From contig JAPDKB010000002.1 of the NCBI GenBank assembly GCA_029258795.1, forward strand, positions 1-50,821: a DNA stretch of 50,821 bases, in the 5' to 3' direction. The notes under the pieces are model-generated. The model did no database searches and had not been told where the DNA came from. It saw only the letters and a list, made by a program, of their open reading frames with translations. A program made the position numbers and the translations under genes. Positions 3,583 to 46,833 of this stretch are shown here, piece after piece (the stretch's first letter is position 1; the number at the start of each line of letters is the position of its first letter). Source of the stretch: an archaeon. GTDB lineage: Archaea > EX4484-52 > WAPT01.

Positions 3583-3637
3583 TGGTCTTATGGATAGAAG
3601 GGTGGTTGGTTTTTTTAACACGGCTGCAGGAGGAAAA

Positions 3638-17200: not shown

Positions 17201-20200
17201 TGGGGTTAAGTGGAACACAGATAATCTCGCTTCAGGCACATACAGAGTTGTTGCGATGCTTACTGATCCCGCAGGAAACCTTCTTGTGAATGGAGACGGA
17301 ACGTATATGATGTACTATGATGAGTTTGAAATATTACCACCACCGAGTATAATACAGCTTGTAAGAATAAAGGTTTACGATGTAACCAATTCAACCTCAC
17401 CCAGAACGGATACATCCAACCTTGAAAAAGAGGGTTTGAATACAACATTCCTGCTTTTCACAAACAGGACTTACAGGGTGGAGGTGATTATTCTCAACAA
17501 CGAAACGAGCCAGAACGACTGGTGGGTGAACACTTCAAGCGAGATAATGTTTGAAGGAATCAACCCTTCATGGAGTGTGGATGATATTAATGATGTATGG
17601 TATGAGATAGGTGGGATAGAATATGTGGGCGGCACATACGATCTCGGGCAGGTGTGGTGGGATCACTCGCTCGGTGGTGTTCTCCCGGTAGGTAGTACGA
17701 TGAAGCTATCATACATCGTAAACACAACATCAGATAGTTCTGAGATTCTGCCCGTGAGATTCTTCCTGAATGGCACATATTTCGTTCTGGAGGATAACTC
17801 AACATTCAAGGTTGTGAAAAGCGAGAACGAGCCACCAAAGCTTTACAACTCAATCTATGGTTTAACGCCCTCTGATGTTATTAGAGATGTTGATGACTTA
17901 TCTCTTTATGCGAGATGGAACGAGGAGATAAGCCAGGCGAACTTCAGCGTTGAATACGCAAGCGGAAAATGGATCAACTCAACTCAGAACTACGACATCT
18001 ATTACTTACCACCTCCGCCTCCAGAAAACTGGACCAACTACACCACCCAGACTAATCTCTCGTGGAGCTTGGGAGAGCACAGGGCAAAGATAGCGGCAGC
18101 AGATCTGAATGGCAATTGGAACGACACCCTACCTTATTTGACTTTCACCGTGTGGGGCAGAGCTTATCTCAAGAAAATTTATGCAGACCCTGATCCTGTG
18201 GTCTACGGACAGAACACCACCATTTATTGCCGTGTTGTGGCAGACAACGGAAGCGGCATATTCAACTATTCTGTGCAGTTCTATTATTATGACAGCGGCT
18301 GGAGGTTTATAGGAGAGAACAGAACAAACGAAAGCGGTTACGCTTCCATGGTCTATCATCCCGAGTTACTAGGACACATACCAGTAAAATGCATAATAGG
18401 GGATTATGAGGAAAAGTACTGGATTGCTACCGTGCAAGAGATAAACACATCGGTCTGGGTGGTTGAAATACAACCGCCATGGTATGACATCTCATCGGTT
18501 GGATCCAACACGACGGTTGTGCATAAGGGTGACGCTGTGGAGCTTTATACCCTATGGTATGATGATTATCAGCTTGATAGTGCTTGGGTATCCACCAATG
18601 AGAGCGGAAGTTTTGTGAATAATTCACTGGCATCATCTATTAAGCTGAACGGCACAGTGGACTGGAGCAACTTCACAATACAGATTCCAACCACAATGGC
18701 TCCTGGCTACCTTGGATGGAAGATTTATGCTAATGACACCTCAGCAAATGTCAATGGAAGCATGCCAGCAAACGTCATTGAGGTATGGGGCTGGGCCGAG
18801 ATAAGGGACAGCATTAGTGAGGATGAAGCCTATCTCCATCCATCATCCATACTTCCTGGAGGCACAACAACTATGTACTGCAGGGTTAGGGATGTGAATG
18901 GGAGTGGTATAGCTAACTACAACGTTTCCTTCTATGAGAACGATGTTTTCTTGGGGTGGAACTTGACCAACGCTACGGGATGGGCCACATTCACGTTTTC
19001 TGAAAGTAATGAAGGCACTTACACAATCAAGTGTAACATAAGTGATGACCCCGTTCTTATGTACAACGCTACCTCAAACAATTACGGCACAGATATTCTG
19101 GTTGTGGGTTACGACACAACACCCCCTTACTTATTTAACAATGTGTACGGAATCAACACAACAAAAGTTTACAAGGGCCAGAGCCTCCTCATTTATGCAA
19201 GGTGGAATGAAACCGTAGGAGAAGCAAGAGTTATCATGAACACAACAAAACAAGAGCTCTCAAGTTATCCGATAAGCTTACCATCTCCCAACTCTCAAAA
19301 CTGGACAAATTACACCATAACTACCAACTCATCTTGGATTACAGGCACACACCATGCAAAAATAGAGGCAAGTGATCAAGTTGGCAACTGGAACGACACC
19401 CTTCCTTTCCAGACGTTTGAAGTTTGGGGTTATGCCAAAGTTTTCTGGCAGGAACCCATCGGTATAGCGTATAGAAGTGATAGTATACCTCTGAAATGTA
19501 AGGTGGTGGATAAGAGTAACAATAACGGTATAGCAAACTATCCGGTAAAGTTCTATGATACGGACTGGGTCTACATCGGCATGAACTACACGGATGCAAA
19601 TGGTATTGCTACCATGAATTGGAACGCTTTATCCTATCCTCCAGGAGACATGACGCTGCACTGTATTATAGCAACCAATTCCACCCTCTTCTACGAAGTG
19701 AAGTCCGGGGATGATGTGGCGGATGGAGCGATAACCCTCTACGGAAATCTGAGCGTGGTGATAGACAGTCCCACTAACAACGCGAACCTGACGAAAGGAC
19801 AGATGGTGTGGCTGAATTCCACAATTTATGAGGACAATGGTAGCGTAACTTCAGCAACAGTTAACTGGTACCTCAACGGAACGAACATAGCAAGCGGAGA
19901 GGATGTACAGTGGCAGGTTCCTTACGATGCGACTCCGGGCAGATACGTGCTGAAGGCCAACGCAACAAAGCAGCACTACGTGCCCGACGAATCAAGTATC
20001 AACGTCAGCATCTTCGGTTACGCTAAAGTCAGCTTCGTGAGTCCAGCATCAAATTCTTCCTATCCACAGGCATCAACTGTCCAGCTCGTTTGTTCGGTGA
20101 GTGATACGTACACAGGAGAAGGAATAGCAAACTACACCGTTCACTTTTATGTTAAGAATGAAACGGATGTATGGTATCTGGGTAACTCAACAACAAATTC

Positions 20201-21203
20201 AACAGGATTTGCAACTCTTAACTGGTATGTAAACCCAACGACATGGAACAATGGCACCTATAATGTGAGCTGTAACATAACCGACGAGCCAGCGCTTTAT
20301 TATTATGCTTCAAGCCTGAAAGAAGATACAATAATCATTAACATAACAAAAGCGGAAATTACAGCATGGTTGGAAGTCATAATGACCTCTCCTCCAGAGG
20401 GCTCCGCAGTAACAATCGCTCCAAACAGGACGTTTGTGTTGAACGCAACTGTAATCTGTCATCAGGACAACTGCGGAGAGGTCAGCATAAACGCGAGGTA
20501 CAACTCCACAGGCAACACTCCCGATACCACCATAACCAACCAGACCGGGGCTCAACCCTTCTACATTATTGGCAACGCAACGCAAAAATGCACACTTAAC
20601 ATCAATGAGAACTGTACTGTCACGTTTATCGTTAACGTCACGGCTTTGGCTGGAGAAATCTATGCTATAGATGTGAATGCATCATCCATAAACGCGTTCA
20701 TGAATGAGAGTGGCGATGCGACAATAGAGGTGCGTTACTTCCTCTTGCTAAATGTGACTCCCGAGTCCATAGCTCTGTGGTATCCGCCTCCCGCCGATTC
20801 ATCCCAACCCTACACAACCACCATAGCCACAAACGAGCTCGATCCACAAACGCGCGGTGCAAAGGGTAAGGATGTGATAAGCGTGAAGCTGGATGATTAC
20901 AGCGCGGATGCCAATGGAGGGCTGTGGGTGAAGGCAACGAATCTTGTGCCACCTTCCCCAAATAATTATGTGATAGCTGCATCAAACCTCACCCTCTGCC
21001 TCGGCTCTACTTACGACACTCCTATTGATGCGGAAGCATGTTTATCTTCCTCATCCAACCGACTGAACACCGACTATGTGCAGAGATTATCCGAGCTAAG
21101 GGCAGGAGAACTTGTCAACTTTACCCTCTTTATAGACATACCTGCAGTTCAGGCGGACAACTATGTTGGCACTCTAATCTTCCTTGTGAACGCAACATAT
21201 TAA
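8202..21203 (+). CDS. Giant (about 4333 aa) multidomain surface glycoprotein
   Basis: The start is taken at the ATG 8202, overlapping the upstream stop (TGATG), rather than the GTG at 8193; a signal peptide follows (AGIMLPVMIAVLLLPQ). Parts in order: tandem propeller-like repeats with the pattern V-W-D/N-G-S-x-W and xDVAY (about 245-640); an H-type-lectin-like triple repeat of about 83 residues (about 997-1250, marked EDEDDTQI and FNW); a DUF2341-type domain starting WWNKVWHYRV (about 1617) and a second starting WWNRSWPYRV (about 2703); at least five Ig-like modules with a C...C pair and the pattern GIANY-V-F (about 750-860 and 3320-4050); and two terminal modules shared with the truncated gene at base 1. 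There are well over a hundred N-glycosylation sequons. No carboxy-terminal membrane helix is present. Inferred role: a very long adhesin or sheath fibre held by its membrane-anchored neighbours. Confidence 0.88.
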   Translation: MNENKLRYGRFAGIMLPVMIAVLLLPQVSYAKIVLSFEKVTLTSCEESNTAFAVVFDKNGDLIPNASVHLIYVCEGRSSLSVYEMKELFKGVYTAEFPARAGIPCDFVVVASYNGTAEVEETGSVVFPKNGVLVRRRFSRAIDPTTTPFVMVIEVDASDENNVTIIEIVPSPLVVEDAPDAEIIRTSNTTILIYRNLHGKEKLAYIARLPEEKGVVYSLGRMVIEDGKGDIVVEGYPAQIVADPVRRSDAFFFYTDGTNYVRYSIYDGSSLTSPYSTLDAQGTPLWIEVAAHPSKPEMVMASVADTGVAYAQVWNGSSWGNGVVLTTAAVTAYRSIDVAYEQKRGRAMVVYADGSSIPKYRIWDGSSWSDEGFAMDVGATVNIIELGSNPTSDEIIMVTADSARDENAQVWDGSAWTNLVELRNDAYANRQSFDVACQSISGTCFVFYADNDDRNAYYAVWNGVSWSYPNTACFFGDFVRTMEAASDPNSNRIVLMGVDRDSDVHFCYYDGSTWYDLGETATTSEQVYHAIDVEFEAKSGDAVFVYNDNTATPKYRILPYDSTSLTAQQSFPSSLDAEPYWIKMVSKKGSDEIALITLSAGNDVNAFVWDGSAWQSLGTLTTASSGSYRGIDVAYPLEYFAPSYDAWGITDGTRTYVSGDKVYRTQELIAYAHWENVSLAYLNHNGTGVFTNYTIPTPYTANWTNTTIDFSNGSQYPVTGKITFSIYAKDVDNVWNKTQPSITLELWGFAEVSDMWLSDSSINNGSYVVAYCKIRDNETLAGIAEYNVSFYLNSSFLGWNVTNSNGVAQLGWVDNTSNPQNPTVYNVSCNITDMPSLYYNASDKNRASTKLEVYSSDYDVTPPTINWIDVAPQPAGFGVEITITANITDDKAVDHVIAKITPPGEETASLNMVNISQDLWSVNYTGWKTGDYTLVIYAYDSNGNVGTATTAFSVRGNTSMTVSTSKKKYAPFEDVHLGKMTSYITSDLETSTKEVTTYYGGDVIHIKIGSGTAPATGTMVNFNTPFSTTEYATIVTAADEDDTQIAMYGAKSMSKFNVKCEDDRGGNEDCNFNWIAIPYGEYKRGDLIIKAGSGYASPTATITFNSPMPTNNYAVLLTAEDEDDTQIMMYGSKSTTGFSVKCEDDGGRNENCNFNWIVIPYGTYQLGDLVIQVGTNVTSGGDATVALNSPMPTNNYAVLLTAEDEDDTQIMMYGSTFISSFNVRMEDDRGGGETGSFDWMAITYGEYDFTESKMIDTESQPYIYNDVFTADLDSLYSIEIVVETSYYDPSASVLNNNAEPDLEVLVFNGSGFESAGILNLPSFYTSSTPDSRIHNFTIVIDDADVLSAWLSDPSNRDIEIRGVYLDSYNETTIDKINYTGVWVRLVEKPGSELRNVGDVDVAGYLKLSVEKRTSTNTWNEIAVVMNDLANSSKRAVPAGTSLNLSRLWESAGGWNPNGSVGTYRVRVEFLDEDGNPIVDERGNILQAFWEFEVALFDSINATPNVIGYGEQTTLSAVVTDESIVSNMSVVVVDPEGNNYEMKAVRVSQNTYAANFSTTWKLGSYTYYFIANLRDGSSATSSSSVFNVSANTILNVYVENDTYGPYEDVNLNPPKTDWWNKVWHYRVMVNVSVQNQHTNFPIELDVNFTQLFQQAGCSSCTLDVNSIRVVEHGNDGDPLYEVPSKTYFPDDFDAARNAIATVIWVMNGTTPGGTTRIYYIYFDSTSNGQKPEPSYNFSVRYSPTTKGVEIDGKYVVVFDSAGEIKEVYLLNGYTDLSSGDSGGGREYWYWSYEYWTGSTYYTMSPRWWNPLITYGPVVWINASVENGQRYTDAIIKIYKRTDHSWVLWLHNWHNRFDEDGGDALIEHFVNIQNSPAGNVDVRECNMAGGTPSCSYITVSQNGGVNVEGYDWVDARFYNDANEPEFYITYIMKNGSFVGFDDVPWDWTIERVDQARNFDRVAISDNPNRAVPAGTEFTRDLFILITDSSGGFAETTEFYNEIADWPSISLSGAEFLDESSFNNVGETGIYFYLEARVQRWDGSSWVSFQLPVIDDRATSTLRYLTPGEMLNISTLWNPIAWNTSEYQAGTYRVYFRAVDPWGNTLKNGDGTLIEGYDTFEIIPPKLELTSLEHENRYEHNINEYEITDTISWINVTVNNYNATAIDAKISLNILDYAKNTVDWGPNETKLCGSIPAGGSCEVKYDNGSAGYPIPVDATPGTYTFHWNVTIEAKNYQATTNTSQTFVLHHIPSGFSSSIYPYKVLNGSWTTYNFTMYNFFSKNLTDVNVTINCPEGVGITCTCYGTSQPYCYLPALDAKTNHTFSFNISTSPATPVGEYVVNVTVTYTNPGNEAHTWYEVESRSFFVKQPYLDVRIVTYPIKVTRGSSFVPLEGFVNNTDPDGNNATNLWLNWSLPAGWINATGELGKFIAVLPPATLAWNNITVNISLSASLGEQKVVLKGENPQWYDLDKKIVVVYANTTIQPYTNQTDPAQGETVLLRATLRYDNSTPISYENISFVDETAGIFIGWDITDASGVAEVTYTLPLTASTGNHTINMSFDGNDDKYINPTHSLLNITVHGKPNITAIAAYPDPQGYGKNVTIKANVTSVEPVDTVIVYITYPNGSTTSITMLETAPGRYSANFSDTWQPGNYSYYVGVNTTASKTDRSQTDYFTIEANTTAYILTDKDSYEQNENVSFVDQPADWWNRSWPYRVEVNVTEKAGVDTIGYPLEISFNPNGHVKSDCEDIRIIDASSGSLIRYRMLSCTSTNVTLYLELNISANQKKTYHIYYGNPLASGMSDDTLSKIVPVGWETPHPYPANIDSWNCDGTGCYAGVPVYSAPFTAVGNTKGRVYMRVVVEGDLDDPFEIWNGEQTTRFFQFDPGGLANNPSYWNGGDYGWSDWYNTDDFTFHFASDRNSNYWGVDVVKAEFELVTLPTISVGREETIPNQILNTGNTSFEGYLTMKVQRKLTNGWQDVDVVVNDLHVELEPLDYVDLDSIWNGVKWNTDNLASGTYRVVAMLTDPAGNLLVNGDGTYMMYYDEFEILPPPSIIQLVRIKVYDVTNSTSPRTDTSNLEKEGLNTTFLLFTNRTYRVEVIILNNETSQNDWWVNTSSEIMFEGINPSWSVDDINDVWYEIGGIEYVGGTYDLGQVWWDHSLGGVLPVGSTMKLSYIVNTTSDSSEILPVRFFLNGTYFVLEDNSTFKVVKSENEPPKLYNSIYGLTPSDVIRDVDDLSLYARWNEEISQANFSVEYASGKWINSTQNYDIYYLPPPPPENWTNYTTQTNLSWSLGEHRAKIAAADLNGNWNDTLPYLTFTVWGRAYLKKIYADPDPVVYGQNTTIYCRVVADNGSGIFNYSVQFYYYDSGWRFIGENRTNESGYASMVYHPELLGHIPVKCIIGDYEEKYWIATVQEINTSVWVVEIQPPWYDISSVGSNTTVVHKGDAVELYTLWYDDYQLDSAWVSTNESGSFVNNSLASSIKLNGTVDWSNFTIQIPTTMAPGYLGWKIYANDTSANVNGSMPANVIEVWGWAEIRDSISEDEAYLHPSSILPGGTTTMYCRVRDVNGSGIANYNVSFYENDVFLGWNLTNATGWATFTFSESNEGTYTIKCNISDDPVLMYNATSNNYGTDILVVGYDTTPPYLFNNVYGINTTKVYKGQSLLIYARWNETVGEARVIMNTTKQELSSYPISLPSPNSQNWTNYTITTNSSWITGTHHAKIEASDQVGNWNDTLPFQTFEVWGYAKVFWQEPIGIAYRSDSIPLKCKVVDKSNNNGIANYPVKFYDTDWVYIGMNYTDANGIATMNWNALSYPPGDMTLHCIIATNSTLFYEVKSGDDVADGAITLYGNLSVVIDSPTNNANLTKGQMVWLNSTIYEDNGSVTSATVNWYLNGTNIASGEDVQWQVPYDATPGRYVLKANATKQHYVPDESSINVSIFGYAKVSFVSPASNSSYPQASTVQLVCSVSDTYTGEGIANYTVHFYVKNETDVWYLGNSTTNSTGFATLNWYVNPTTWNNGTYNVSCNITDEPALYYYASSLKEDTIIINITKAEITAWLEVIMTSPPEGSAVTIAPNRTFVLNATVICHQDNCGEVSINARYNSTGNTPDTTITNQTGAQPFYIIGNATQKCTLNINENCTVTFIVNVTALAGEIYAIDVNASSINAFMNESGDATIEVRYFLLLNVTPESIALWYPPPADSSQPYTTTIATNELDPQTRGAKGKDVISVKLDDYSADANGGLWVKATNLVPPSPNNYVIAASNLTLCLGSTYDTPIDAEACLSSSSNRLNTDYVQRLSELRAGELVNFTLFIDIPAVQADNYVGTLIFLVNATY
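11512..11847 (+). repeat. Exact 87-bp direct repeat within giant gene
   Basis: Bases 11512-11598 and 11761-11847 are identical over 87 bases. The offset is 249 bases, exactly 83 codons, so both copies are in phase and encode the same 29 residues (NSPMPTNNYAV through MMYGS). The surrounding lectin-like repeats and a third upstream copy (about 11255-11345) have diverged, so the identity points to recent gene conversion or slippage between repeat units. Confidence 0.9.
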
Positions 21204-22176: not shown

Positions 22177-22181
22177 AAGAA

Positions 22182-22697
22182 TCAGTCCACATATCTCACA
22201 ACTTCGTCAAGCGGTTTTCTTGTTGAGGTTGGCTTTTCTGCAGGGTAACCAACGGTTATTATGGCTACAGGTCTCTCGATGGGGGGAACCCTGACTATAG
22301 ATGCAACTTCCTCTTCGTTAAAAGCTCCAATCCAGCATGTTCCAAGCCCTAGATCATAAGCTCTGAGAAGCATGTTCTGAATGGCTGCTGCAGTGTCCTG
22401 AATTGCGTAGAGCTCTACACCCCTCCTGCCGTAGAACTTATCTATCTCATCTCTATCGAAGGTCACAACAATGGAGACCGGGGCTTCAATTATCTGCTTC
22501 TGCATGTACGAAGCTTTCATCAGCTTTTCTCTTAAATCCCTGTTTCTTACCACGTAGAAGCGCCATGTCTGTGTGTTGCCTGCAGAAGGAGCCCATATCG
22601 CAGCTTCAAGAATTTCTCGGATTTTTTCATCTTCCACCTCTTTCTGTTCGTACTTCCTTATACTCCTCCTTCCCATTATTGCGTCTTTGACCTCCAT
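22182..22697 (-). CDS. Nitroreductase-family flavoprotein
   Basis: A 171-residue protein of the nitroreductase superfamily, FMN-dependent NAD(P)H oxidoreductases. The amino terminus has the family signature RRSIRKY (about 10-16) for phosphate binding, followed by APSAGNTQTWRF (about 37-48). The second half has DTAAAIQNMLLRAYDLGLGTCWIG, which includes the FMN/dimer-interface segment, and the closing VGYPAEKP motif. The length is typical of the short archaeal members. It converges with the surface-protein operon with only five bases between stops and stands upstream of nothing on its own strand, so it is probably a single-gene unit. The physiological substrate cannot be told from sequence. Confidence 0.9.
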   Translation of the reverse strand: MEVKDAIMGRRSIRKYEQKEVEDEKIREILEAAIWAPSAGNTQTWRFYVVRNRDLREKLMKASYMQKQIIEAPVSIVVTFDRDEIDKFYGRRGVELYAIQDTAAAIQNMLLRAYDLGLGTCWIGAFNEEEVASIVRVPPIERPVAIITVGYPAEKPTSTRKPLDEVVRYVD

Positions 22698-22730
22698 AAA
22701 GTGAGGTTACACATCCAACCTATATATAAT

Positions 22731-23660
22731 TTACTCTTCCTCCGGATACCTATCACACCTCAGCAGCTTTTTCATCGGGAACATCTTGGTGCTTAAATAC
22801 TTGAAGCCCATATCCGGAAATATGACTGCCACTCTTGCATTTTTATTTCTTGCAATTTCCCTTGCAACGTGAAGTGCTGCCCCACTCGACATACCCACCA
22901 GCAAACCGTTTGTTCTTGCAAGCCATCTTGCTGATTCGTAAGCATCCTCTTCATTCACATAAACAACATCGTCAATCACACTTTCGTCCAGAATCCGTGG
23001 CTTGAAACACCTCTTCAGGTTTCTCAAGCCCTGGATGTTACTGTCATCATCCGGCTCGACACCCACCACCTTTATTTCAGGATTCTTTTCCTTCAAAAAT
23101 TTTCCAACGCCCGTTATCGTTCCTCCAGTTCCTACACCAGCCACAAAGTGAGTTATCTTTCCATCCATCTGATGCCAGATTTCTGGAGCGGTGGTTTCAT
23201 AATGGGCCTTAATGTTAGCTTCATTGCTGTACTGGTCCAGCCATACGAACTTCTCCGGCATTTTTTCCACAAGATTTTTTATGTATTCAAACGCTCCGTC
23301 AGTCCCTTTCTCAGCAGGAGTCAACACAACCTCACAGCCAAGTGCCATCAATATTTTTCTCCTCTCCACAGACACGGATTCGGGCATTGCCACCAGAACT
23401 CTGTAGCCCTTAACAGCCGCAACCACCCCAATCCCTATCCCCATGTTTCCGGAAGTTGCCTCCACTATTATTTTATCCTTGGTTAACAACCCTTTTTTCT
23501 CCGCCTCCTCCACCATATAAAGCGCGGCTCTATCCTTAACCGAACCGCCGGGATTCATACCCTCCAGCTTGGCCCAAATTTCACCATAACTTTCATCCAT
23601 CTTTATTTTGACCATCGGCGTCTCTCCTATCAGCTCCAGAGTTGATGCTGCCACTTTCAT
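22731..23660 (-). CDS. cysM: Cysteine synthase (PLP-dependent, CysK/CysM family)
   Basis: A fold-type II PLP enzyme of 309 residues that would make cysteine from O-acetylserine or O-phosphoserine and sulfide. PLP lysine lies in PGGSVKDRA (about residue 41); SGNMGIG is the substrate loop; GTGGTITG is the phosphate-binding loop; GMSSGAA closes the active site. The start is moved from the longer frame (23681) to the ATG at 23660, because the bases just before it form an almost complete Shine-Dalgarno site, GGAGGTGA, that otherwise would be coding. O-acetylserine versus O-phosphoserine use is not decided by what I can see. Cystathionine beta-synthase-type activity is a less likely alternative. 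Confidence 0.9.
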   Translation of the reverse strand: MKVAASTLELIGETPMVKIKMDESYGEIWAKLEGMNPGGSVKDRAALYMVEEAEKKGLLTKDKIIVEATSGNMGIGIGVVAAVKGYRVLVAMPESVSVERRKILMALGCEVVLTPAEKGTDGAFEYIKNLVEKMPEKFVWLDQYSNEANIKAHYETTAPEIWHQMDGKITHFVAGVGTGGTITGVGKFLKEKNPEIKVVGVEPDDDSNIQGLRNLKRCFKPRILDESVIDDVVYVNEEDAYESARWLARTNGLLVGMSSGAALHVAREIARNKNARVAVIFPDMGFKYLSTKMFPMKKLLRCDRYPEEE

Positions 23661-23798
23661 GTTAACATTCACCTCCTCCATCGTTTTGCAGAAAAGAGCG
23701 GAAACTTATAATTACATCTTTAGAAGAATTCAGGACAAACAGCGCCACCCTTCATCATGGCTTTAATAACATCGTTATATCTTTATAAAAGTTTTCAT

Positions 23799-24440: not shown

Positions 24441-24509
24441 CCATGACCTCAAATAATTATTGTTCTCTACGGTGGGGGCGTGGTGTAGTGGCATCACGGT
24501 GGGCTCCAG

Positions 24510-24568
24510 ACGCAAGCTGGAGCGCTGACGCAAGGATGATCTGCGGTGGGTGTGTCAAGCTGGGAGAC
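24510..24568 (+). ncRNA. tRNA-Trp anticodon-loop intron with C/D-type guide
   Basis: Within this intron CTGGAGC (24517-24523) is complementary to the exon GCTCCAG around the anticodon, and a CTGA box (24525-24528) follows after one base. The fifth base before CTGA is G24520, which pairs with C34 of the anticodon, as the box C/D N+5 rule requires for 2'-O-methylation. A degenerate C-like box (ATGATCT, from 24536) lies eight bases further on. Pre-tRNA-Trp introns guiding C34 methylation are known in euryarchaea. Here the pairing is directly visible; that it forms an active box C/D particle, possibly after circularisation, is inference. Confidence 0.65.
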
Positions 24569-24589
24569 ACCCACTGACCGGGGTTCGAT

Positions 24590-24630
24590 GGCCGCTTTCA
24601 ACTCGTGCACGCAGATTTTGCGGCCGGAAA
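24590..24630 (+). other. T-loop intron of tRNA-Trp
   Basis: This 41-nt insertion splits the T-loop between positions 59 and 60. The outer helix is the T-stem itself, the central 4-bp helix is TTCG (24584-24587) with CGGA (24625-24628), and two 3-nt bulges (24588-24590 and 24629-24631) lie on opposite strands. Cutting after the second bulge base restores a 7-base T-loop. Confidence 0.8.
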
Positions 24631-24683
24631 TCCCTGCGCCCCCACCACATTTTTATTTTTACAAGCAGAGGGAGGTGCCGAAG

Positions 24684-24836
24684 GTGCTTGATGAGATTCT
24701 TGCAAATCTGGAGAAGAACAGGAGGAATCTAACGATAAAAGAGAAAGCTCTGCTTGACATGCTTGAAAGCGTGAGGCAGAGAGATGAAGAAGCTAAAAAA
24801 GCAGGGAGGGACAGTTTTAAGAGGCCGCTGGAGTGA
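24684..24836 (+). CDS. Small charged helical protein (about 50 aa)
   Basis: A GTG at 24684 follows GGAGGTG (24671-24677) with a 6-base spacer, and the frame then encodes about 50 residues, largely helical and charged (DEILANLEKNRR, ESVRQRDEEAKKAGRD). It starts 36 bases after tRNA-Trp. A longer frame beginning inside the tRNA is not credible. The strong Shine-Dalgarno site is the main support; I recognise no family. Confidence 0.45.
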   Translation: MLDEILANLEKNRRNLTIKEKALLDMLESVRQRDEEAKKAGRDSFKRPLE

Positions 24837-24909
24837 GGGGTTTGGGTGTGAATAAAACAACAGAGTTTCTTCGAAAATTTTAAATATTATTATCATAAAA
24901 ATTATTATC

Positions 24910-26319
24910 ATGATAATAAAATTCTACAACAGGAAAAAAGAGCTCGAACTCCTGAAAAAAGTGAGGAGACCTTTTTTAGCGGTAATCTACGGAAGGAGAA
25001 GAATTGGCAAAACAAGACTCGTCCTTGAATTTGTGAAAGACGATAATTATGTGTATTTCTTTGTCAATCCCAGAAAATCCGAAGTCATGCTTATTGAAGA
25101 ATTTTCAAATCTTTTGAAAGAGAAGATGAACATACCCGATTATGTTTCTCCAACTTTCTGGGAAGAGTTCTTTGATCTGCTGTTTGAGTATGATGGCGTC
25201 GTGATTTTTGATGAATTTCAGTGGTTTCTGGAAGTCGGACGGGAAGTGCCGTACATTTTACAGAAGTTCTGGGATGTGAGAGACAAAAAGCCCACGATCA
25301 TAATTACGGGCTCAATCGTTGGCATGCTGAAAAAGCTCTTCGTGGAGGAGGGAGCACCACTTTTCAAAAGAGCAGAAGTGATTATGAACTTGAAACCTCT
25401 GGATATCGGAACGATTTTCACGATGCTTGGGGATATGGGAATCAGAGATATCGAGGAAAAGTTCAAGATTTACATGATCTTCGGCGGTGTACCTTATTAT
25501 TATGCTCTAATCAATAAATATGGTGCGAGGGATGTTGAGAACATAATAAAGGAACTGATAGTTGAAGAGAACGCACCGCTGAGAAGAGAGGTTGAGGATG
25601 TAATTGTGGAATCCTTCAAGAGGGAATACAAAACCTATCTTGCCATCCTTTATGCGATAGCTGAAGGAAAGACGAAGTTCGAGGAGATAGCATCCGTTGC
25701 GGGCGTAAAGGTCACGTCTCTCCCTGCATACCTCAATGACCTCATGAATATGCTCGATCTCATAGAAAGACAACCAGTCGGATTCAAAAAAAGACATATT
25801 TATCTGATTAAGGACAGGTTCCACAATTTCTGGCTGAGATACATCTACAAGTACTCGAGTATTTCGAGCAGCGAGCGGCTTTTTGAGTTGATAATGGAGA
25901 CGATAAACTACTTTTACGGGTGGAGTTTTGAGGTGACCTGCAGGGAGATCACACCTCTGCTGTTTCCACAGATGGAAAATATAATGCGATATCACGGCTA
26001 CCTCAGAAGGAAAGGTAAGCGTGAGGTGTTCGAGATAGACATCGTTGCCCTCAACGAACAAACTAAAGAAATCCTCTTCGCAGAATGCAAATGGCAGGAT
26101 GGTGTTGACGCGGGCAAAGTTGTTGAGGAGCTTGCTGAGAAAGCAAGGCATGTTGAATGGCACAACGATGAGAGAAAGGAAAGCTTTGCTGTGTTTGCGA
26201 AGAGCTTCAGCAAGAGAATTGATGAGTTTGAGGAGAAGAAAGTTTATTGTTTTGACCTGGAGGATATGGAGAGGGTGATCAAAGCGAATTCTGCTCGATA
26301 CGGGCTTCAAAAGGTGTGA
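24910..26319 (+). CDS. Archaeal ATPase with DUF234-type nuclease-like domain
   Basis: A 469-residue protein of the archaeal ATPase family (PF01637-like, MNS clade of STAND NTPases). P-loop GRRRIGKT is at about 28-35 and Walker B VVIFDEFQW at about 96-104. A winged-helix-like middle region (KTKFEEIASVAGVKVTSLPAYLNDL) and a carboxy-terminal DUF234-type domain follow, the latter with EIDIVAL then FAECKW at about 376-396, the D...E-x-K arrangement of the restriction-endonuclease fold. A TATA box (ATTTTAAATATT, near 24877) lies about 25 bases before the ATG, so the mRNA is probably leaderless. It is a tandem paralogue of the next gene, with a nearly identical carboxy-terminal 90 residues. Such ATPases are common in archaeal accessory regions; a role in defence or mobile-element control is inference. 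Confidence 0.88.
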   Translation: MIIKFYNRKKELELLKKVRRPFLAVIYGRRRIGKTRLVLEFVKDDNYVYFFVNPRKSEVMLIEEFSNLLKEKMNIPDYVSPTFWEEFFDLLFEYDGVVIFDEFQWFLEVGREVPYILQKFWDVRDKKPTIIITGSIVGMLKKLFVEEGAPLFKRAEVIMNLKPLDIGTIFTMLGDMGIRDIEEKFKIYMIFGGVPYYYALINKYGARDVENIIKELIVEENAPLRREVEDVIVESFKREYKTYLAILYAIAEGKTKFEEIASVAGVKVTSLPAYLNDLMNMLDLIERQPVGFKKRHIYLIKDRFHNFWLRYIYKYSSISSSERLFELIMETINYFYGWSFEVTCREITPLLFPQMENIMRYHGYLRRKGKREVFEIDIVALNEQTKEILFAECKWQDGVDAGKVVEELAEKARHVEWHNDERKESFAVFAKSFSKRIDEFEEKKVYCFDLEDMERVIKANSARYGLQKV

Positions 26320-26357
26320 TGCAATGATTTTTAAATTTTCGGATTTACATGATAATC

Positions 26358-27788
26358 ATGCAAAAGATAAAGTTTGTGGACAGGGAGCAGGAGCTTGAGT
26401 GGCTTGAGAACATCTATCGAAGGAAGGGCTTCAAACTTGTCGTTATCTTCGGGAGGAGAAGGGTCGGTAAGACTGAGCTCTTGAAGGAATTCCAGAAAGA
26501 CAAGAAACACATCTATTACCTATGCGATAAAGGAGGAACCGTAAAAAACGCGAGAGAATTCGCCAGAATAGCAAGCGTATTTTTTAACGATGTCCCACCA
26601 TCGGTTGAGAGGGGATTCGAGGATGTGTTCGAATACATAAAACGCCGAATCCAACCGGATGAGAAGATTGTAATCACAATTGACGAGTTTCCGTATCTGG
26701 TCGAGAAAGACCCCGCCATTCCCTCGATTTTTCAAAAAGTGGTGGACGAGATACTTAATGACACAGAGGTTATGCTCATCCTGTGCGGATCTTCGATGGG
26801 TATGATGTACGAGCACACTATAAGCTCCAAGTCTCCGCTGTACGGAAGAAAGAGCGGAATGTGGGAGGTGAGGCCGTTCTCATTTTTAGACGTCTGCAAA
26901 TTTTTCGAGAGACTCCCTTTTCATAAAGTTGTCGAGATATATTCGGTTTTCGGCAACATACCTGCATATCTCAAGGAGGTTGACTCCTCACTGACCTTGG
27001 AGGATAACATAAAACAAAAGATAATGCAAAAAGGCTCCCCGCTCTACAGAGAGCCCGAAATTCTGCTTCTGGAGGAGTTCAGAGACCCATCGCCATACCA
27101 GAACATACTTGAAGCCATGACCCGTGAGGCATCACTGAGCAAGATCGCATCGAGGGCTGGAATAGAGGCCAAGGACATGCCCAAGTATCTCAGCAAGCTG
27201 ATGCAGCTCTCGCTGATAAGAAAAGAGCTGCCGGTCACCCAAAGAAAGGGCAAGAAAACCCTGTATTTCGTAGAGGACAATCTATTTTACTTCTGGTTCA
27301 GGTTCTGCAGCAGGAATCTCTCATACCTTGAGGAGGGGAAGGAGGAGTTCGTATTCAAGGAATATGTGAGCGGGGAACTGCACAGGGTCGTAGGCATGGT
27401 GTTTGAGAGAGTCTGCAGGGAACTTATCCCTGTAGTATTTCCCAAGGCATGGGACAGGATTGGAAGATGGTGGGGATTCAGGAGAAACGAAAGTGGAGGA
27501 AGAGTGATCGAAGAGATCGACGTCGTAGCATTAAACGATCAAACTAAAGAAATCCTCTTCGCAGAATGCAAATGGCAGGATAATGTTGATGCGAGGAAGG
27601 TTGTTGAGGAGCTTGCTGAGAAAGCTCAGCATGTTGAATGGAACAACAATGAAAGAAAGGAGAGCTTTGCTGTATTTGCGAAGAGCTTCAGCAAAAGGAT
27701 TGATGAGTTTGAGGGGAAGGAAGTTTATTGTTTTGACATGGAGGATATGGAGAGGATTGTGATGGACGCTTCTCATCAGGAGAGCTGA
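26358..27788 (+). CDS. Second archaeal ATPase with DUF234-type domain
   Basis: This 476-residue paralogue of the preceding gene has P-loop GRRRVGKTE at about 32, Walker B IVITIDEFPYL at about 104, a winged-helix segment (SLSKIASRAGIEAKDMPKYLSKL) and a DUF234-type end with EIDVVAL then FAECKWQD. I take the ATG at 26358 because a TATA-like TTTTTAAATTTTC sits about 25 bases upstream, which suggests a leaderless message; an ATG at 26349 is three codons earlier. The DNA at 27541-27581 matches 26061-26101 almost exactly, whereas the amino-terminal halves are quite different. It converges with the next gene and the two overlap by 13 bases. Function unknown beyond NTP hydrolysis and a probable nucleic-acid-binding or nuclease domain. 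Confidence 0.88.
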   Translation: MQKIKFVDREQELEWLENIYRRKGFKLVVIFGRRRVGKTELLKEFQKDKKHIYYLCDKGGTVKNAREFARIASVFFNDVPPSVERGFEDVFEYIKRRIQPDEKIVITIDEFPYLVEKDPAIPSIFQKVVDEILNDTEVMLILCGSSMGMMYEHTISSKSPLYGRKSGMWEVRPFSFLDVCKFFERLPFHKVVEIYSVFGNIPAYLKEVDSSLTLEDNIKQKIMQKGSPLYREPEILLLEEFRDPSPYQNILEAMTREASLSKIASRAGIEAKDMPKYLSKLMQLSLIRKELPVTQRKGKKTLYFVEDNLFYFWFRFCSRNLSYLEEGKEEFVFKEYVSGELHRVVGMVFERVCRELIPVVFPKAWDRIGRWWGFRRNESGGRVIEEIDVVALNDQTKEILFAECKWQDNVDARKVVEELAEKAQHVEWNNNERKESFAVFAKSFSKRIDEFEGKEVYCFDMEDMERIVMDASHQES

Positions 27789-29047
27789 TTGGCGAACAAC
27801 ACTTTCATTATCGGCACAAGTTTTATCATGCGGTCATCGAATTTCATCTCCTTTTCTGGTCCGCTGTAAATCACGTATCCGAGCTTGGTGGAGAACTTTC
27901 TCATGAAATAGAGAAGGGGTTTCAAATCCCCTTTCTTGAGTGTATCCTTTGCTTTCACCTCAATTGGGATGATATCGTCACCATCCACCTTGAGAAAATC
28001 CACCTCCTTGGAGCCATGCCTCCAGTACTTATCGAGAGCAAGAGATGCCATTACGAGGTTTTCAAAGATGCTACCTGCTTTTATAGAGGGATTGTATGGA
28101 TACGCGAGAGAGGGGTGGTAAGGATAGATTTTTCTCATCTTTCTTGATTCCGCACGAACTGACGGTCTGAAGTTTGTTACCGATTTCACTACCTTTCCGA
28201 ACTCCAAGTAGGAGATGTGTCTGCTGAGGGTCTGCTTGTGCACCCCCAAATCCTTTGCCAGTTCCGTCAAGTTCAGGATCGTCCCAACATCCCGCATGAA
28301 TATGTTCAGGAGTGTCATCAAAAGTTTGAGGTTGATCCCTTCAAAACTCTGAGGGATGTCGGACTTCACGATTTTCTCCACCACCAGTTCCCTTATGTAC
28401 TCGTTTATCCTCCTTTTGTCGCTCCATTTCACTATCTCCGGAAACGGTCGCCTCACGTAATCATCAAATATGGCTTTCAGTCTGGAGTGATAAAGCTCGT
28501 AGCTCTCCACGGGTCTGTTGTAGTAAAGCTCCGCAAATTCCTGAAGCGTGAGCGGCTTCACCTCAACGGAGAAGAATCGGCCTGCGAGATCTTTGAGTGC
28601 ATCCCTCCACAGCCCGATGTTGGCTGAGCCGGAGACGCATAGCTTGACGTTCGGCAGAGAGTCGTAGAGAAGCTTTATTTTTGAACTCCACCCCTCAAGT
28701 TTGTGTATTTCATCCAGAAAGATGTAAACTCTCTCGCGTTTCCAGTTAACTTTGGTCATGACCTCATATTCTTCCAGAATTCTGAGGGGATCCTCAATTC
28801 TTTCATCAAAGGAAAAGTAGAGTATGTTTTTATGGTTCACATCCCTTTTCAGAAGCTCTTCTATAAGCTGGTACATCAGTGTGGTTTTGCCCACCCTCCT
28901 CAAACCTGAGATGAGAATTATCTGGCGGTAATTGAAAAACAGATTCTCAAGTTCGTGAAACACCTTTCTTCTGTATGGCTTGGCCTTCTCGTTTGATATT
29001 GACCCATCCACCCACCACTCATTCAGCATCTCCAAAATCTCTCGCAT
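27776..29047 (-). CDS. AAA_14 ATPase with DUF4143-type domain
   Basis: A 423-residue protein with P-loop GLRRVGKTT (about 48-56), Walker B VYIFLDEIHKL (about 108-118), sensor-like CVSGSAN, and a winged-helix segment (LTELAKDLGVHKQTLSRHISYL, given here in part; about 262-283). It ends in a DUF4143-type region (about 325-410) with EVDF then IPIEVKA, the D...E-x-K signature of the endonuclease-like fold. Two copies of an inverted repeat surround its TATA box, so it is probably under tight, perhaps self-regulated, control. The ATG lies about 25 bases from the TATA box (leaderless). It differs in family from the two ATPases beside it. Related proteins are often linked to toxin-antitoxin-like or mobile regions; the role here is unknown. 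Confidence 0.88.
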   Translation of the reverse strand: MREILEMLNEWWVDGSISNEKAKPYRRKVFHELENLFFNYRQIILISGLRRVGKTTLMYQLIEELLKRDVNHKNILYFSFDERIEDPLRILEEYEVMTKVNWKRERVYIFLDEIHKLEGWSSKIKLLYDSLPNVKLCVSGSANIGLWRDALKDLAGRFFSVEVKPLTLQEFAELYYNRPVESYELYHSRLKAIFDDYVRRPFPEIVKWSDKRRINEYIRELVVEKIVKSDIPQSFEGINLKLLMTLLNIFMRDVGTILNLTELAKDLGVHKQTLSRHISYLEFGKVVKSVTNFRPSVRAESRKMRKIYPYHPSLAYPYNPSIKAGSIFENLVMASLALDKYWRHGSKEVDFLKVDGDDIIPIEVKAKDTLKKGDLKPLLYFMRKFSTKLGYVIYSGPEKEMKFDDRMIKLVPIMKVLFANQLS

Positions 29048-29048
29048 A

Positions 29049-29101
29049 TTAGTTCTCTATCAGAACTAAAATTTAAATTTTTGGTTCTGAACGGGAACTA
29101 A
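29049..29101. promoter_or_regulatory. Paired operators flanking the ATPase TATA box
   Basis: TTAGTTCT-N5-AGAACTAA at 29049-29069 is a perfect inverted repeat. TTGGTTCT-N5-GGAACTAA at 29081-29101 has the same spacing with one change in each arm. Their centres are 32 bases apart, about three helical turns. Between them lies the AT-rich TATA element (29068-29080, AAATTTAAATTT) of the minus-strand ATPase gene that starts at 29047. A dimeric repressor binding both would block TBP/TFB. Confidence 0.65.
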
Positions 29102-29120
29102 TGTTTTAACTAAAGGGGTT

Positions 29121-29288
29121 ATGAGGATCAGCTTGAAAAGAAAAGCTGAAAGTGTGAGATAGAAGAATGAATATTTTTCCGTTTTTGCAAAAAGTTCCAG
29201 CAAAAGAATTGATGAGTCTGAAAAGATAAGAATTTATTGTTCTAGTCTGAGAGATACGGAGGAAATCTCTTCTGTGACCATATGTTAA
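29121..29288 (+). pseudogene. Decayed remnant of a DUF234 ATPase carboxy terminus
   Basis: Read in frame from 29121, this stretch gives a TAG (29160-29162), then KNEYFSVFAKSSSKRIDE and KIRIYCSSLRDTEEI, ending at TAA 29286-29288. The intact paralogues at 24910 and 26358 have RKESFAVFAKSFSKRIDE and VYCFDxEDMER in the same order. It therefore looks like the last 50-55 codons of a third copy, with a stop, a short deletion before the stop and several substitutions. No ATPase domain remains. The rest of 29102-29393 holds only this remnant and the AT-rich promoter of the next gene. Confidence 0.7.
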
Positions 29289-29359
29289 GAAGTTTTTACA
29301 TTTATAGAACTAAAATTGTTGTTTTTTCTGAAGATTTAGGTTTTTGAATACTGTCAGAA

Positions 29360-29370
29360 AAAATTTATTT
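29360..29370 (+). promoter_or_regulatory. TATA box for leaderless V4R gene
   Basis: AATTTATTTTT lies about 28 bases before the ATG at 29394, and no Shine-Dalgarno site precedes that ATG, so the transcript probably begins at or next to the start codon. Confidence 0.5.
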
Positions 29371-29393
29371 TTGAATTAACATAAAAACAACCA

Positions 29394-30062
29394 ATGGGTG
29401 TAAGTTTCCTAGCAAAATTGATTTTATCAGGTGCTCTTAAATTAGACGAAGGTCGCATAAATCTAAAAAATCAGCTAGATTTCTTACTAACTCCGGCACT
29501 TTTTGCTACTCAGATAACAAAATACTTCATATCTCAAGGAAAAGAAGATATACTATATCTTATATCCTGGATAAACGGGTATATTTCTAATTACAAAATA
29601 AAAATGCTGTTTAATTTGGATACTCCCGAAAAAATGTACCGGATTGGGATGGATTTTGGGGAATCTATGGGGATTGGACTTTATAAGACTCATGACTACC
29701 ATCCAGGTAGGTATACACACTTCGTGATACGAACAAATCCTATAGCAGAATTATATGGAAAGTCAGATCGGCCCATTGATTATATAATAGCTGGCGGAAT
29801 GGCTGGAGGCGGATGCTTAGTACACAATGACATATGTCAGAATGTAGAGATAAGATGTAAATCATGCTCTTCTGATGTATGTGAGTTCTTAACTGGGACT
29901 CCTCGAGAACTTAAATCAAGAAATTTATGGAAAGAAGTCCAGGTGCGATACAATTTAAAAGAAATTCTACCCATCCAAAAATATCTTTATGAAGAATACA
30001 ATCCTCAAGAAGAACAAAGAATACTTCAATATGTTTTTGAAGAACTTTCAAAATTAGAATGA
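29394..30062 (+). CDS. V4R-domain protein (4-vinyl reductase-like)
   Basis: A 222-residue soluble protein whose second half has the V4R layout: a glycine-rich turn (AGGMAGGGC) followed by cysteines in CLVHNDIC, RCKSC and VCEFL, resembling the conserved cysteine block of V4R/XylR-N domains that bind small hydrophobic ligands or metal. The amino-terminal third is helical and unmatched. Base composition is visibly more AT-rich than in the surface and ribosomal genes, as is that of its convergent neighbour (9-base overlap at 30054-30062), so the pair may have been acquired together. Likely a ligand-sensing protein; ligand and partner are unknown. Confidence 0.7.
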   Translation: MGVSFLAKLILSGALKLDEGRINLKNQLDFLLTPALFATQITKYFISQGKEDILYLISWINGYISNYKIKMLFNLDTPEKMYRIGMDFGESMGIGLYKTHDYHPGRYTHFVIRTNPIAELYGKSDRPIDYIIAGGMAGGGCLVHNDICQNVEIRCKSCSSDVCEFLTGTPRELKSRNLWKEVQVRYNLKEILPIQKYLYEEYNPQEEQRILQYVFEELSKLE

Positions 30063-30887
30063 ATCAGCTATTTTATCTTTTTCCTCTTTTAACTTATTGT
30101 AGAGTCTTTGGCGATATGGTTCTTCATCTAGCCGATTTATATCCCTTTTAGCCTCTTTATATACTTCACTAGCGAGTTTGGGGATTAGTTCCGGTTCTCT
30201 TTGCTCTAGTATAATAATAGGAGTATGAGTTTCATGCTGTTTGTCATGAATGACATCATTTATGTCTTTAACAAATAAATTAAATTTTCTGAAGCCTTGA
30301 AAAGCTCTTTTGATTTTATCTTTATCTCTAATATTGGGGTTTTTGATTAACGGTATTTCTACAAAACCTATTATGTCATAACTTCTTGTTCTGTAGTTTT
30401 TCAATCCAATATCTAGCATATTGTCTTTATCTTCCTCTTGAAGTAGTAGTTGAATCGTATATTTCTCTCCACTCTGAACAAGTTGTAACACGGTTATATG
30501 CTCATTAAATATATTCTGGATATTTTCAGGAGCGATACCAAAAGCTCGTACTATTTTACCAAGTTCAAAAATATGCGCTGCACTTTCATACTTATTCATT
30601 TTTTCATCAGTTATTTCATCTCCAATAGCGGTAGCATAATCCAAAGCTATAGAATACGGAAGTAATTCGACCGGATACTTTTCCTTAAACACATCGTATA
30701 CATGTCTAGTTCTCAAGTCTTTTCTTCCTGTCTTGAATTTGTTATGAAGGAGTTGAGAAGACATACAGCTTATACTGTCTATTACCTCCGGGAGCTCAGG
30801 AATTCCAATTATTTTGCTCTCCTCTTTAATGTATTTTTTATCGATATTTACAAACTCCTCATATATATTTTCTATATCCTCTAGCAT
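30054..30887 (-). CDS. Unrecognised AT-rich gene, 277 aa
   Basis: I do not recognise this protein. It is soluble, without signal peptide or membrane helix, mostly helical at the amino terminus (NIYEEFVNIDKKYIKEE), with a central beta-rich part (about 125-190, YTIQLLLQEEDK and YDIIGFVEIPLI) and a charged helical end rich in Lys, Arg and Glu. There is no P-loop, zinc knuckle or catalytic motif that I can name. A TATA-like CTTAAATAATTT lies about 35 bases upstream on the minus strand, and codon use is AT-rich like the V4R gene it converges with (9-base overlap). Its surroundings are NTPase genes of accessory type. Confidence 0.75.
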   Translation of the reverse strand: MLEDIENIYEEFVNIDKKYIKEESKIIGIPELPEVIDSISCMSSQLLHNKFKTGRKDLRTRHVYDVFKEKYPVELLPYSIALDYATAIGDEITDEKMNKYESAAHIFELGKIVRAFGIAPENIQNIFNEHITVLQLVQSGEKYTIQLLLQEEDKDNMLDIGLKNYRTRSYDIIGFVEIPLIKNPNIRDKDKIKRAFQGFRKFNLFVKDINDVIHDKQHETHTPIIILEQREPELIPKLASEVYKEAKRDINRLDEEPYRQRLYNKLKEEKDKIADSF

Positions 30888-30964
30888 TATTAACTACCCA
30901 TAAGTAATAAAACACGAAATTATTTAAGTTTTTCGTTTCTGACCACCTTCCTTACCCAATCCAA

Positions 30965-31729
30965 TTATTTAATTAGCATAGTTGGATCAGTATTGACTTC
31001 TATCTCCTTTGCTTTTATGTCAAACGGAAATAACCCTTTTTCATGATCCGTAAACCTCATTTTTCTTATTTCCAACATTCTATTTTCCTCTGACCCGATG
31101 CTTAGGTAGTGTAACACAATCACTCCATCACACAAAAACTCGCTTATACCATCGCTGCTGAGCTGGTTTGAATCTTCCTGAATCTCGCTGAGGAGGAAAG
31201 CTGTTAGGTTCTTCTCATTTCTCAGCATGTTTATCAAATGGGTTATTATGGCTCTCCTCAACCAGCCCTCATGCCCCATGAACTTTACCTTTTTCTGCGT
31301 TACCCTGACATCAAGTCTTTCAGCTTCAATGAGCAGAGCAGGATGATTTTCAAGAGCTGTCAGAGAGTCGATCACCACCCTATTGTAGTTGCCGCTCTTG
31401 ATCTCCGATATCATCTTGTTGTAGAGCTCATACCCCTCTCTCACAAAATCAAAGCTCAGAATCTTGAGCAGCCCCTTCTTGATGTATCCCTCAACATCCC
31501 ATCCAAACGCCTTGGCTTGCTTAACTATATCCTCATACGGTTGCTCGAAGGAAACGTAAAGCCCCTTCTCCCCCATCTTACAGCCGTTTACCAGAATCTG
31601 CATGGAAAGTATGCTTTTCCCGCTACCAGGAGAACCGCTGATGAGTATTACAGCACCTTTCGGAATTCCTCCGTGCAGGAGTTCATCAAGGCCTTTAATA
31701 CCCGTTTTTGTTCTTTCCATATCCATCAT
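30965..31729 (-). CDS. KaiC/RadA-like RecA-fold ATPase
   Basis: A 254-residue single-domain KaiC-like ATPase. It opens with the family phrase TGIKGLDELLHGGIPKG, then P-loop GSPGSGKS (about 32-39), the SFEQP acidic motif, and Walker B RVVIDSLTAL (about 117-126). Such single-domain archaeal KaiC proteins are linked to signal transduction and often pair with kinases or gas/light sensors. It is read away from tRNA-Gly. The upstream region has a TATA element (CACTTAAATATCC, near 31752-31766) and an ATTGTCGAAAA half-site at 31777-31787 that resembles the hsp20 operator. Function in this organism is not determined by sequence. Confidence 0.85.
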   Translation of the reverse strand: MMDMERTKTGIKGLDELLHGGIPKGAVILISGSPGSGKSILSMQILVNGCKMGEKGLYVSFEQPYEDIVKQAKAFGWDVEGYIKKGLLKILSFDFVREGYELYNKMISEIKSGNYNRVVIDSLTALENHPALLIEAERLDVRVTQKKVKFMGHEGWLRRAIITHLINMLRNEKNLTAFLLSEIQEDSNQLSSDGISEFLCDGVIVLHYLSIGSEENRMLEIRKMRFTDHEKGLFPFDIKAKEIEVNTDPTMLIK

Positions 31730-31947
31730 ATTTTGATTTTATGTTATGCAGGGATATTTAAGTGTTTCGAATTAAATTTTCGACAATTGTTGACTTTTAA
31801 AATAAATGGAAATTATTTTATTCTGCCAAGCTGAGTTTCGAAATAAAGGAGGCGGCAACGGTTCTTTTTACACAATGCGTGAATGTGTGTTGGGAGAAGA
31901 TAAAGAAATGCTGGCTGAACTTTGGCTCAAGCCAAACCCAGAGAATG

Positions 31948-31960
31948 TTTTAAATAATTT
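31948..31960 (+). promoter_or_regulatory. TATA box for tRNA-Gly
   Basis: A TTTTAAATAATT element lies about 45 bases before the mature 5' end of tRNA-Gly, similar in sequence to the elements before tRNA-Trp and tRNA-iMet. Confidence 0.45.
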
Positions 31961-32000
31961 TCCCGCTATCACAAATTAACATCAAAATCTGTGTGTTCCT

Positions 32001-32123
32001 GCGCCGGTGGTCTAGGGGTATGACTGCGGCCTTCCAAGCCGCCAGCCCGGGTTCGAATGCTGCGGAAGCAGAGCTTGAAAGCTTGTGGTTGCTCCGCGGC
32101 TGAAAATCCCGGCCGGCGCACCA
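32001..32123 (+). tRNA. tRNA-Gly(UCC) with T-loop intron
   Basis: Acceptor GCGCCGG (32001-32007) pairs with CCGGCGC (32113-32119), then A and an encoded CCA. D-stem GTC/GAC. Anticodon stem GCGGC (32026-32030) and GCCGC (32038-32042) enclose CTTCCAA, anticodon TCC. T-stem CCGGG (32047-32051) pairs with CCCGG (32108-32112). A 49-nt intron (32058-32106) splits the T-loop at 59/60. After removal the T-loop reads TTCGAAT and the tRNA is 74 nt with CCA. There is no intron in the anticodon loop. Confidence 0.92.
32058..32106 (+). other. T-loop intron of tRNA-Gly
   Basis: Textbook bulge-helix-bulge: outer helix is the T-stem, central 4-bp helix TTCG (32052-32055) with TGAA (32101-32104), 3-nt bulges AAT (32056-32058) and AAT (32105-32107) on opposite strands, and an 8-bp inner helix (32059-32066 with 32093-32100, one G:U). 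Cutting after the second base of each bulge leaves exactly TTCGAAT. Confidence 0.88.
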
Positions 32124-46755: not shown

Positions 46756-46833
46756 AGCGGGGTAGAGCAGCCTGGAGTGCTCGCCGGGCTCATAACCCGG
46801 AGGTCGCAGGTTCAAATCCTGCCCCCGCTACCA
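46756..46833 (+). tRNA. Initiator tRNA-Met(CAU)
   Basis: Acceptor AGCGGGG (46756-46762) pairs with CCCCGCT (46823-46829); A and encoded CCA follow. D-stem GAGC/GCTC, anticodon stem CCGGG/CCCGG with loop CTCATAA, T-stem GCAGG/CCTGC with loop TTCAAAT. The first pair A1:U72 and three G:C pairs below the anticodon loop mark it as initiator. It has no intron, unlike the two other tRNAs in the window. A TTTTTAAGA element about 38 bases upstream is the probable TATA box. Confidence 0.95.

Follow-up and report, generated by a model that had tools for sequence, protein, structure and literature searches.

T-loop introns at position 59/60 in most of the tRNA genes found in a DPANN archaeon, and their apparent transfer between isoacceptors

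The closest described counterparts of the introns reported here are those of Thermoproteales, a crenarchaeal order in which BHB introns likewise occur at non-canonical positions and in which similar introns in different isoacceptors have been read as the outcome of transposition (Sugahara 2008 and Fujishima 2010, summarized in PMC4090602 and PMC4033280). Position 59/60 is on the published list of non-canonical sites, and the transposition of introns in Thermoproteales is known to be large-scale (PMC4090602, PMC4033280); its mechanism was called still unknown in a review (PMC4090602). According to tRNAscan-SE 2.0, the intron models of which were trained on Crenarchaeota, Euryarchaeota and Thaumarchaeota, Thermoproteales carry 0.84 introns per tRNA gene versus 0.21 overall (PMC8450103). 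The order belongs to a group with (αβ)2 endonucleases, and its introns occupy varied positions. As in Thermoproteales, closely similar introns reside in different isoacceptors of the genome studied here (G000); in contrast to Thermoproteales, the host is a DPANN archaeon by our placement, position 59/60 dominates and one α-type endonuclease subunit was found. A search of the open-access literature, with most subscription journals outside its scope, yielded no report of non-canonical introns in DPANN tRNA genes. Thus position 59/60 and mass intron transposition are already known, both from Thermoproteales, while the scale, the lineage, the α-only enzyme and the natural empty sites are without a counterpart in the literature searched.

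Two interrupted tRNA genes and their BHB motifs

The window, i.e. the whole stretch of 50,821 nucleotides analysed (contig C2 of G000, a draft genome of 1.17 Mb and 96% completeness), contains a tRNA-Trp(CCA) and a tRNA-Gly(UCC) gene, each interrupted in the T-loop (Table 1). Very likely, both inserts are BHB introns of the archaeal type, the tRNA genes that they interrupt are functional, and the introns are part of a mobile set which has moved precisely between T-loops of unrelated tRNA genes in this genus.

Table 1. Positions of the interrupted tRNA genes, their introns and the central helices of the T-loop BHB motifs in the window
Feature	Coordinates	Strand	Remarks
tRNA-Trp(CCA) gene, two introns	24474..24644	+	Discriminator A at 24644, then encoded CCA; syntenic with the Trp genes of G001 and G002
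Canonical 37/38 intron of tRNA-Trp	24510..24568	+	CTCC pairs with GGAG at 24563-24566; intron also in the sisters
59/60 T-loop BHB intron of tRNA-Trp, 41 nt	24590..24630	+	Site empty in G001 and G002
Trp central BHB helix, 5' strand (TTCG)	24584..24587	+	Partner 24625-24628
Trp central BHB helix, 3' strand (CGGA)	24625..24628	+	
tRNA-Gly(UCC) gene, interrupted at 59/60	32001..32120	+	Encoded CCA follows
59/60 T-loop BHB intron of tRNA-Gly, 49 nt	32058..32106	+	Member of the 13-intron family
Gly central BHB helix, 5' strand (TTCG)	32052..32055	+	Partner 32101-32104
Gly central BHB helix, 3' strand (TGAA)	32101..32104	+	

A preliminary description had reported, for both genes, the intron spans, the T-stem as outer helix, a 4-bp central helix formed by TTCG and a 3-nt bulge on each strand. 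The spans proved exact to the base by sequence reading and by the sister empty sites, and the helices and bulges match base by base. In tRNA-Trp, the outer helix is 24579-24583/24632-24636, the bulges lie at 24588-24590 and 24629-24631, and GCCGC (24591-24595) pairs with GCGGC (24620-24624) in the inner helix; in tRNA-Gly, the bulges lie at 32056-32058 and 32105-32107, and the inner helix joins 32059-32065 with 32094-32100. As had also been described, removal of the intron leaves a 7-base T-loop, and the two introns are dissimilar in sequence; they fell into separate groups when introns were compared. Removal restores a proper tRNA, joined at the very point where the uninterrupted sister genes run through. 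The motif is identical to that of canonical 37/38 archaeal tRNA introns, with which the endonuclease and the ligase are presumably shared; the position differs, and the Trp gene of the window holds both types.

Exon pairing alone (7 acceptor and 5 T-stem pairs, no BHB criterion) gave one solution for each window gene. Both genes were missed by ARAGORN and by Rfam at the gathering threshold, and in a genome-wide run of RF00005 the Gly gene appeared only below the cut-off, with 27.6 bits. Since standard finders can miss such genes, genomes that carry them look poorer in tRNAs and less complete than they are.

In the three genomes of the genus, a full 4-bp central helix with at least 3 contiguous inner pairs was found in 30 of 44 introns compared to 0.1% of shuffled introns; the boundary caller behind this count credited the central helix, and the G000 set gives the same boundaries without that credit. 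In a MAFFT alignment of 13 interrupted tRNAs (Cys was left out after misplacement), the acceptor, D, anticodon and T stems were 100% paired after intron removal and the central helix was 98% paired, while 18 of 31 pairs had changed on both sides, which none of 500 shuffles reached. Energy folding is weaker evidence: the minimum-energy structure shows the T-stem and the inner helix, not the 4-bp central helix, and the T-arm fold has a z of -3.9 relative to shuffles in tRNA-Gly and is no stabler than shuffles in tRNA-Trp (z -1.2). GGTTCRA alone was uninformative as a search pattern, its reversed control being commoner.

Archaeal integrases often use tRNA genes, and an integrase route has been proposed for a Caldiarchaeum intron (PMC3293823), hence the inserts could be regarded as scars of integrases that target T-loops. 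The inserts of G000 are, however, too short for genes (24-52 nt), and the full BHB motif is present in the introns of the genus far above the level of shuffled introns; we rejected this explanation as very improbable.

Even less probable is that the interrupted genes are pseudogenes, translation being served by intact copies elsewhere. Contig C11 does carry an ordinary tRNA-Gly(UCC), and contig C3 an odd Gly-UCC-like gene; however, C11 is most likely a bacterial contaminant, and the C3 gene has no U33. The tRNA searches of G000 found no second Trp gene. Moreover, 27 of 43 tRNA genes, many of them the sole copy found for their anticodon, are interrupted at 59/60 and retain intact exon pairings, and they cannot all be dead. 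On these grounds the pseudogene explanation was rejected, and the concern about intact copies raised in the preliminary description is mostly answered.

On C11 (G000:C11:1-3000), Thr-Tyr-Gly-Thr tRNAs lie beside the start of a bacterial-type EF-Tu gene and a Na/phosphate transporter-like gene. This is the usual bacterial layout. The MAG thus seems to hold a bacterial contaminant contig despite its stated contamination of 0. The C3 gene (G000:C3:58040-58110) has TCC at the anticodon position, A for U at 33 and a Trp-like D-arm; no CCA is encoded, and it is not among the tRNAs found in the sister species.

Genome-wide scale and empty sites in sister species

The preliminary description had proposed a scan of all tRNA genes of the genome. 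Searches based on the Rfam tRNA model, on a T-loop pattern and on a covariance model made from 13 interrupted tRNAs of G000 itself recovered 43 tRNA genes (excluding four on the bacterial-looking C11), at least 27 of which carry a 59/60 intron of 24-52 nt. The two T-loop introns described earlier are both real; their number was an incomplete count of a feature that is genome-wide and also order-wide. The carriers are Trp, Gly-UCC, Gly-CCC, Cys, Glu-UUC, Glu-CUC, Gln-UUG, Asp, His, Ile-UAU, Thr-GGU, Val-GAC, Ala-CGC, Ala-GGC, Arg-GCG, Pro-GGG, Pro-CGG, two Pro-UGG, four Ser and four Leu genes. Other tRNA genes are split in the D-arm or carry canonical introns in the anticodon loop. The tRNA searches of this 96% complete genome recovered no gene for a few of the anticodons to be expected; these genes may be more heavily split or may lie in the missing part.

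Two species of the same genus, G001 and G002 (all genomes compared are draft MAGs), have 59/60 introns in 8 of 30 and 9 of 32 tRNA genes, respectively, as found with one model, the search of G000 having been somewhat more thorough. In both, the Trp junction reads GGTTCGAT followed directly by TCCCTG and the Gly-UCC junction reads GGTTCRAW followed directly by TCCCGG, with no insert. The sister Trp genes keep the 37/38 intron and lack the T-loop intron at the exact predicted junction. They share their neighbourhood with G000, namely nitroreductase-like and cysteine-synthase-like genes (window 22179-23795 aligned), and the Gly-UCC to Trp distance is about 6.5 kb in G001 and 7.5 kb in the window. 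Judged from sequence, we consider these empty sites the strongest proof of the window introns.

At ten of the 27 sites, neither sister has the intron (Trp, Gly-UCC, Gln-UUG, Gly-CCC, Cys, Thr-GGU, Ser-UGA, Ala-CGC, Val-GAC and Pro-GGG). The mature exons of Gln-UUG (compared to both sisters) and of Thr-GGU and Val-GAC (compared to G002) are identical with and without the intron. Since the sisters are without many of the introns of G000, introns are still gained and lost in this lineage. Some sites (Ser-CGA, Ser-GGA, Arg-GCG, Pro-UGG, Ile-UAU and Ser-GCU) are filled in all three species. These shared sites, together with the occurrence of 59/60 introns across the order and in other small-genome archaea, would suit introns that are ancestral and were lost in the sisters, with no recent spread. 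We regard this as unlikely: within G000, the identity between introns of unrelated isoacceptors reaches 96%, and one family of introns occupies different genes in G000, G001 and G002. Any single site may reflect either gain in G000 or loss in the sisters, above all that of Gly, since several families of the order carry unlike 59/60 introns in their Gly genes.

D-arm introns are present in Val-CAC and Arg-UCU of G000, while Val-CAC is uninterrupted in both sisters and Arg-UCU in G002, which implies that movement is not confined to the T-loop. The tRNA-Ile(UAU) of all three species has an anticodon-loop insert in addition to its 59/60 intron; in Nanoarchaeum and Korarchaeum, a UAU tRNA takes the place of the usual Ile2(CAU) (PMC8450103).

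An intron family in unrelated isoacceptors

Sequence comparison against shuffled controls united 13 introns from the three species in one family that extends across unrelated isoacceptors: Leu-CAG and Ala-GGC in G001, Leu-CAG and Glu-CUC in G002, and nine other genes in G000. The Gly intron of the window is a member, 84% identical to the Glu-UUC intron, while the Trp intron groups with the Leu-UAG intron alone, and weakly. The introns of Ala-CGC and Val-GAC are 96% identical, the exons differing at bases 51, 57, 59 and 63. Two Pro-UGG genes 5.8 kb apart are nearly identical in their exons and immediate downstream sequence, and their introns are different. The occupation of different isoacceptors in each species by the 13-member family implies that the introns move between tRNA genes. 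We read this as repeated, precise transfer that left the exons unaltered.

Ordinary gene conversion between tRNA genes could account for the spread without any mobility particular to the introns. The T-arms of different tRNAs are near-identical around the site, so that short homologies are available; on the other hand, the differences between Ala-CGC and Val-GAC leave few shared bases flanking the junction for a conversion tract. We consider conversion alone a possible but doubtful account, and retain intron transfer as the preferred one, whichever route it takes.

In the precursor RNA, the T-stem would form the outer helix, T54-T55-C56-R57 would pair with the final helix-forming bases of the intron, leaving a 3-nt bulge on either side. 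The splicing endonuclease is predicted to cut on the 3' side of base 59 and on the 5' side of base 60; RtcB would ligate the exons into a normal 7-base T-loop. The conserved T-loop supplies half of each new splice site. Transfer may proceed by reverse splicing at the RNA level followed by recombination, or by short-tract gene conversion. Because presence/absence pairs with identical exons, a large moving intron family and a simple enzyme are all available in this genus, gain, direction and mechanism are directly testable.

Splicing machinery, host and spread beyond the genus

The preliminary description had also proposed that the splicing-endonuclease subunits be identified, and had suggested that the T-loop introns might mark an enzyme of broad specificity. 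G000 has a single endonuclease gene, which encodes a 197-aa protein of α architecture, and one gene was found for the RtcB ligase. No β or second subunit was found in G000 with Pfam PF01974 and PF02778 and NCBIfam NF007086, a missed gene being possible in a 96% complete genome; a further NF007086 match in a 42-aa frame was dismissed (E 0.06). As the other subunits were not found, we infer a homotetramer.

The G000 protein aligns over almost its whole length with the α4 enzyme of M. jannaschii (PDB code: 1a79), which also has one short α subunit. Relative to the latter, it has approximately 4 additional residues (around EEEKVK) where crenarchaeal enzymes have their loop and approximately 7 more between the catalytic Tyr and His (in NPYKKGEKSPRE); the latter stretch is shared with Nanohaloarchaea and, in length, with the α subunit of N. 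equitans. A lysine-bearing loop at the first position, as in endonucleases with a Crenarchaea-specific loop (CSL) or an ARMAN-specific loop (ASL), is reported to confer broad specificity, and loop-bearing species to have more varied introns (PMC12397907, PMC6379350). The Lys-Val-Lys of G000 (EKVK) aligns with K44-P45-R46 of A. pernix and fits the CSL pattern Lys-[Pro/Val]-[Lys/Arg]. However, the CSL comprises 15-18 residues and the G000 stretch is far shorter, and, in contrast to CSL/ASL and to (αβ)2 endonucleases, no separate β subunit gene was found in G000. The Lys-x-basic pattern is missing from most of the order's other members. These features bear on the rule that non-canonical introns accompany (αβ)2 or ε2 endonucleases.

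The BHB motifs of the window are canonical and do not by themselves call for a broad-specificity enzyme. Of the 27 introns of G000, at least five others (Asp, Ser-CGA, Ser-UGA, Ser-GGA and His) have fewer than 3 contiguous inner pairs. Such relaxed introns and the extra loop residues are suggestive, not proof, of broad specificity. Tentatively, a homotetrameric α-only endonuclease with independently gained broad-specificity loops may have let the introns spread as RNA-level mobile elements: excised introns would enter the conserved T-loop of further tRNAs by reverse splicing and pass back into DNA, most tRNAs would then have become dependent on T-loop splicing, and parallel outbreaks would have occurred in several DPANN lineages.

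The closest named relatives of the endonuclease are those of the two sister MAGs, followed by MAGs labelled Nanohaloarchaea, Nanohalarchaeota and Aenigmatarchaeota. From these relatives we place the host as a DPANN archaeon near Nanohaloarchaeota/Aenigmatarchaeota, the phylum not being fixed because the labels conflict; hydrothermal Nanohaloarchaeota (Nanohydrothermales) have been described (PMC9563170). The earlier view that T-loop introns are notable outside Thermoproteales holds, but the euryarchaeal frame in which it was put does not suit a host that is not a mainstream euryarchaeon.

Several dozen more 59/60 introns were found in other families of the order and in other archaea, counting solely places parsed as full tRNA genes, since the broad pattern survey also matches non-tRNAs; the 4-bp central helix is present in nearly all. 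In another genus of the order (g3), one intron type (TTTCAAAAATCTGGAGATTTT...) occurs in Arg, Gln and Glu tRNAs. A distant archaeal genome of 0.6 Mb (G103) has eight very similar T-loop intron candidates, two of which were parsed (L300, on G103:C36, is among the places). The introns of g3 and G103 are apparently separate outbreaks.

Apart from the two interrupted genes, the window contains an uninterrupted tRNA-Met (46756-46833), the sole window tRNA found by ARAGORN, which is probably the initiator, judging from its AGCGGGG start. A single open frame of 4336 aa (8193-21203) apparently encodes a giant surface protein and adjoins two more large secreted-looking proteins (148-3582 and 3590-7786).
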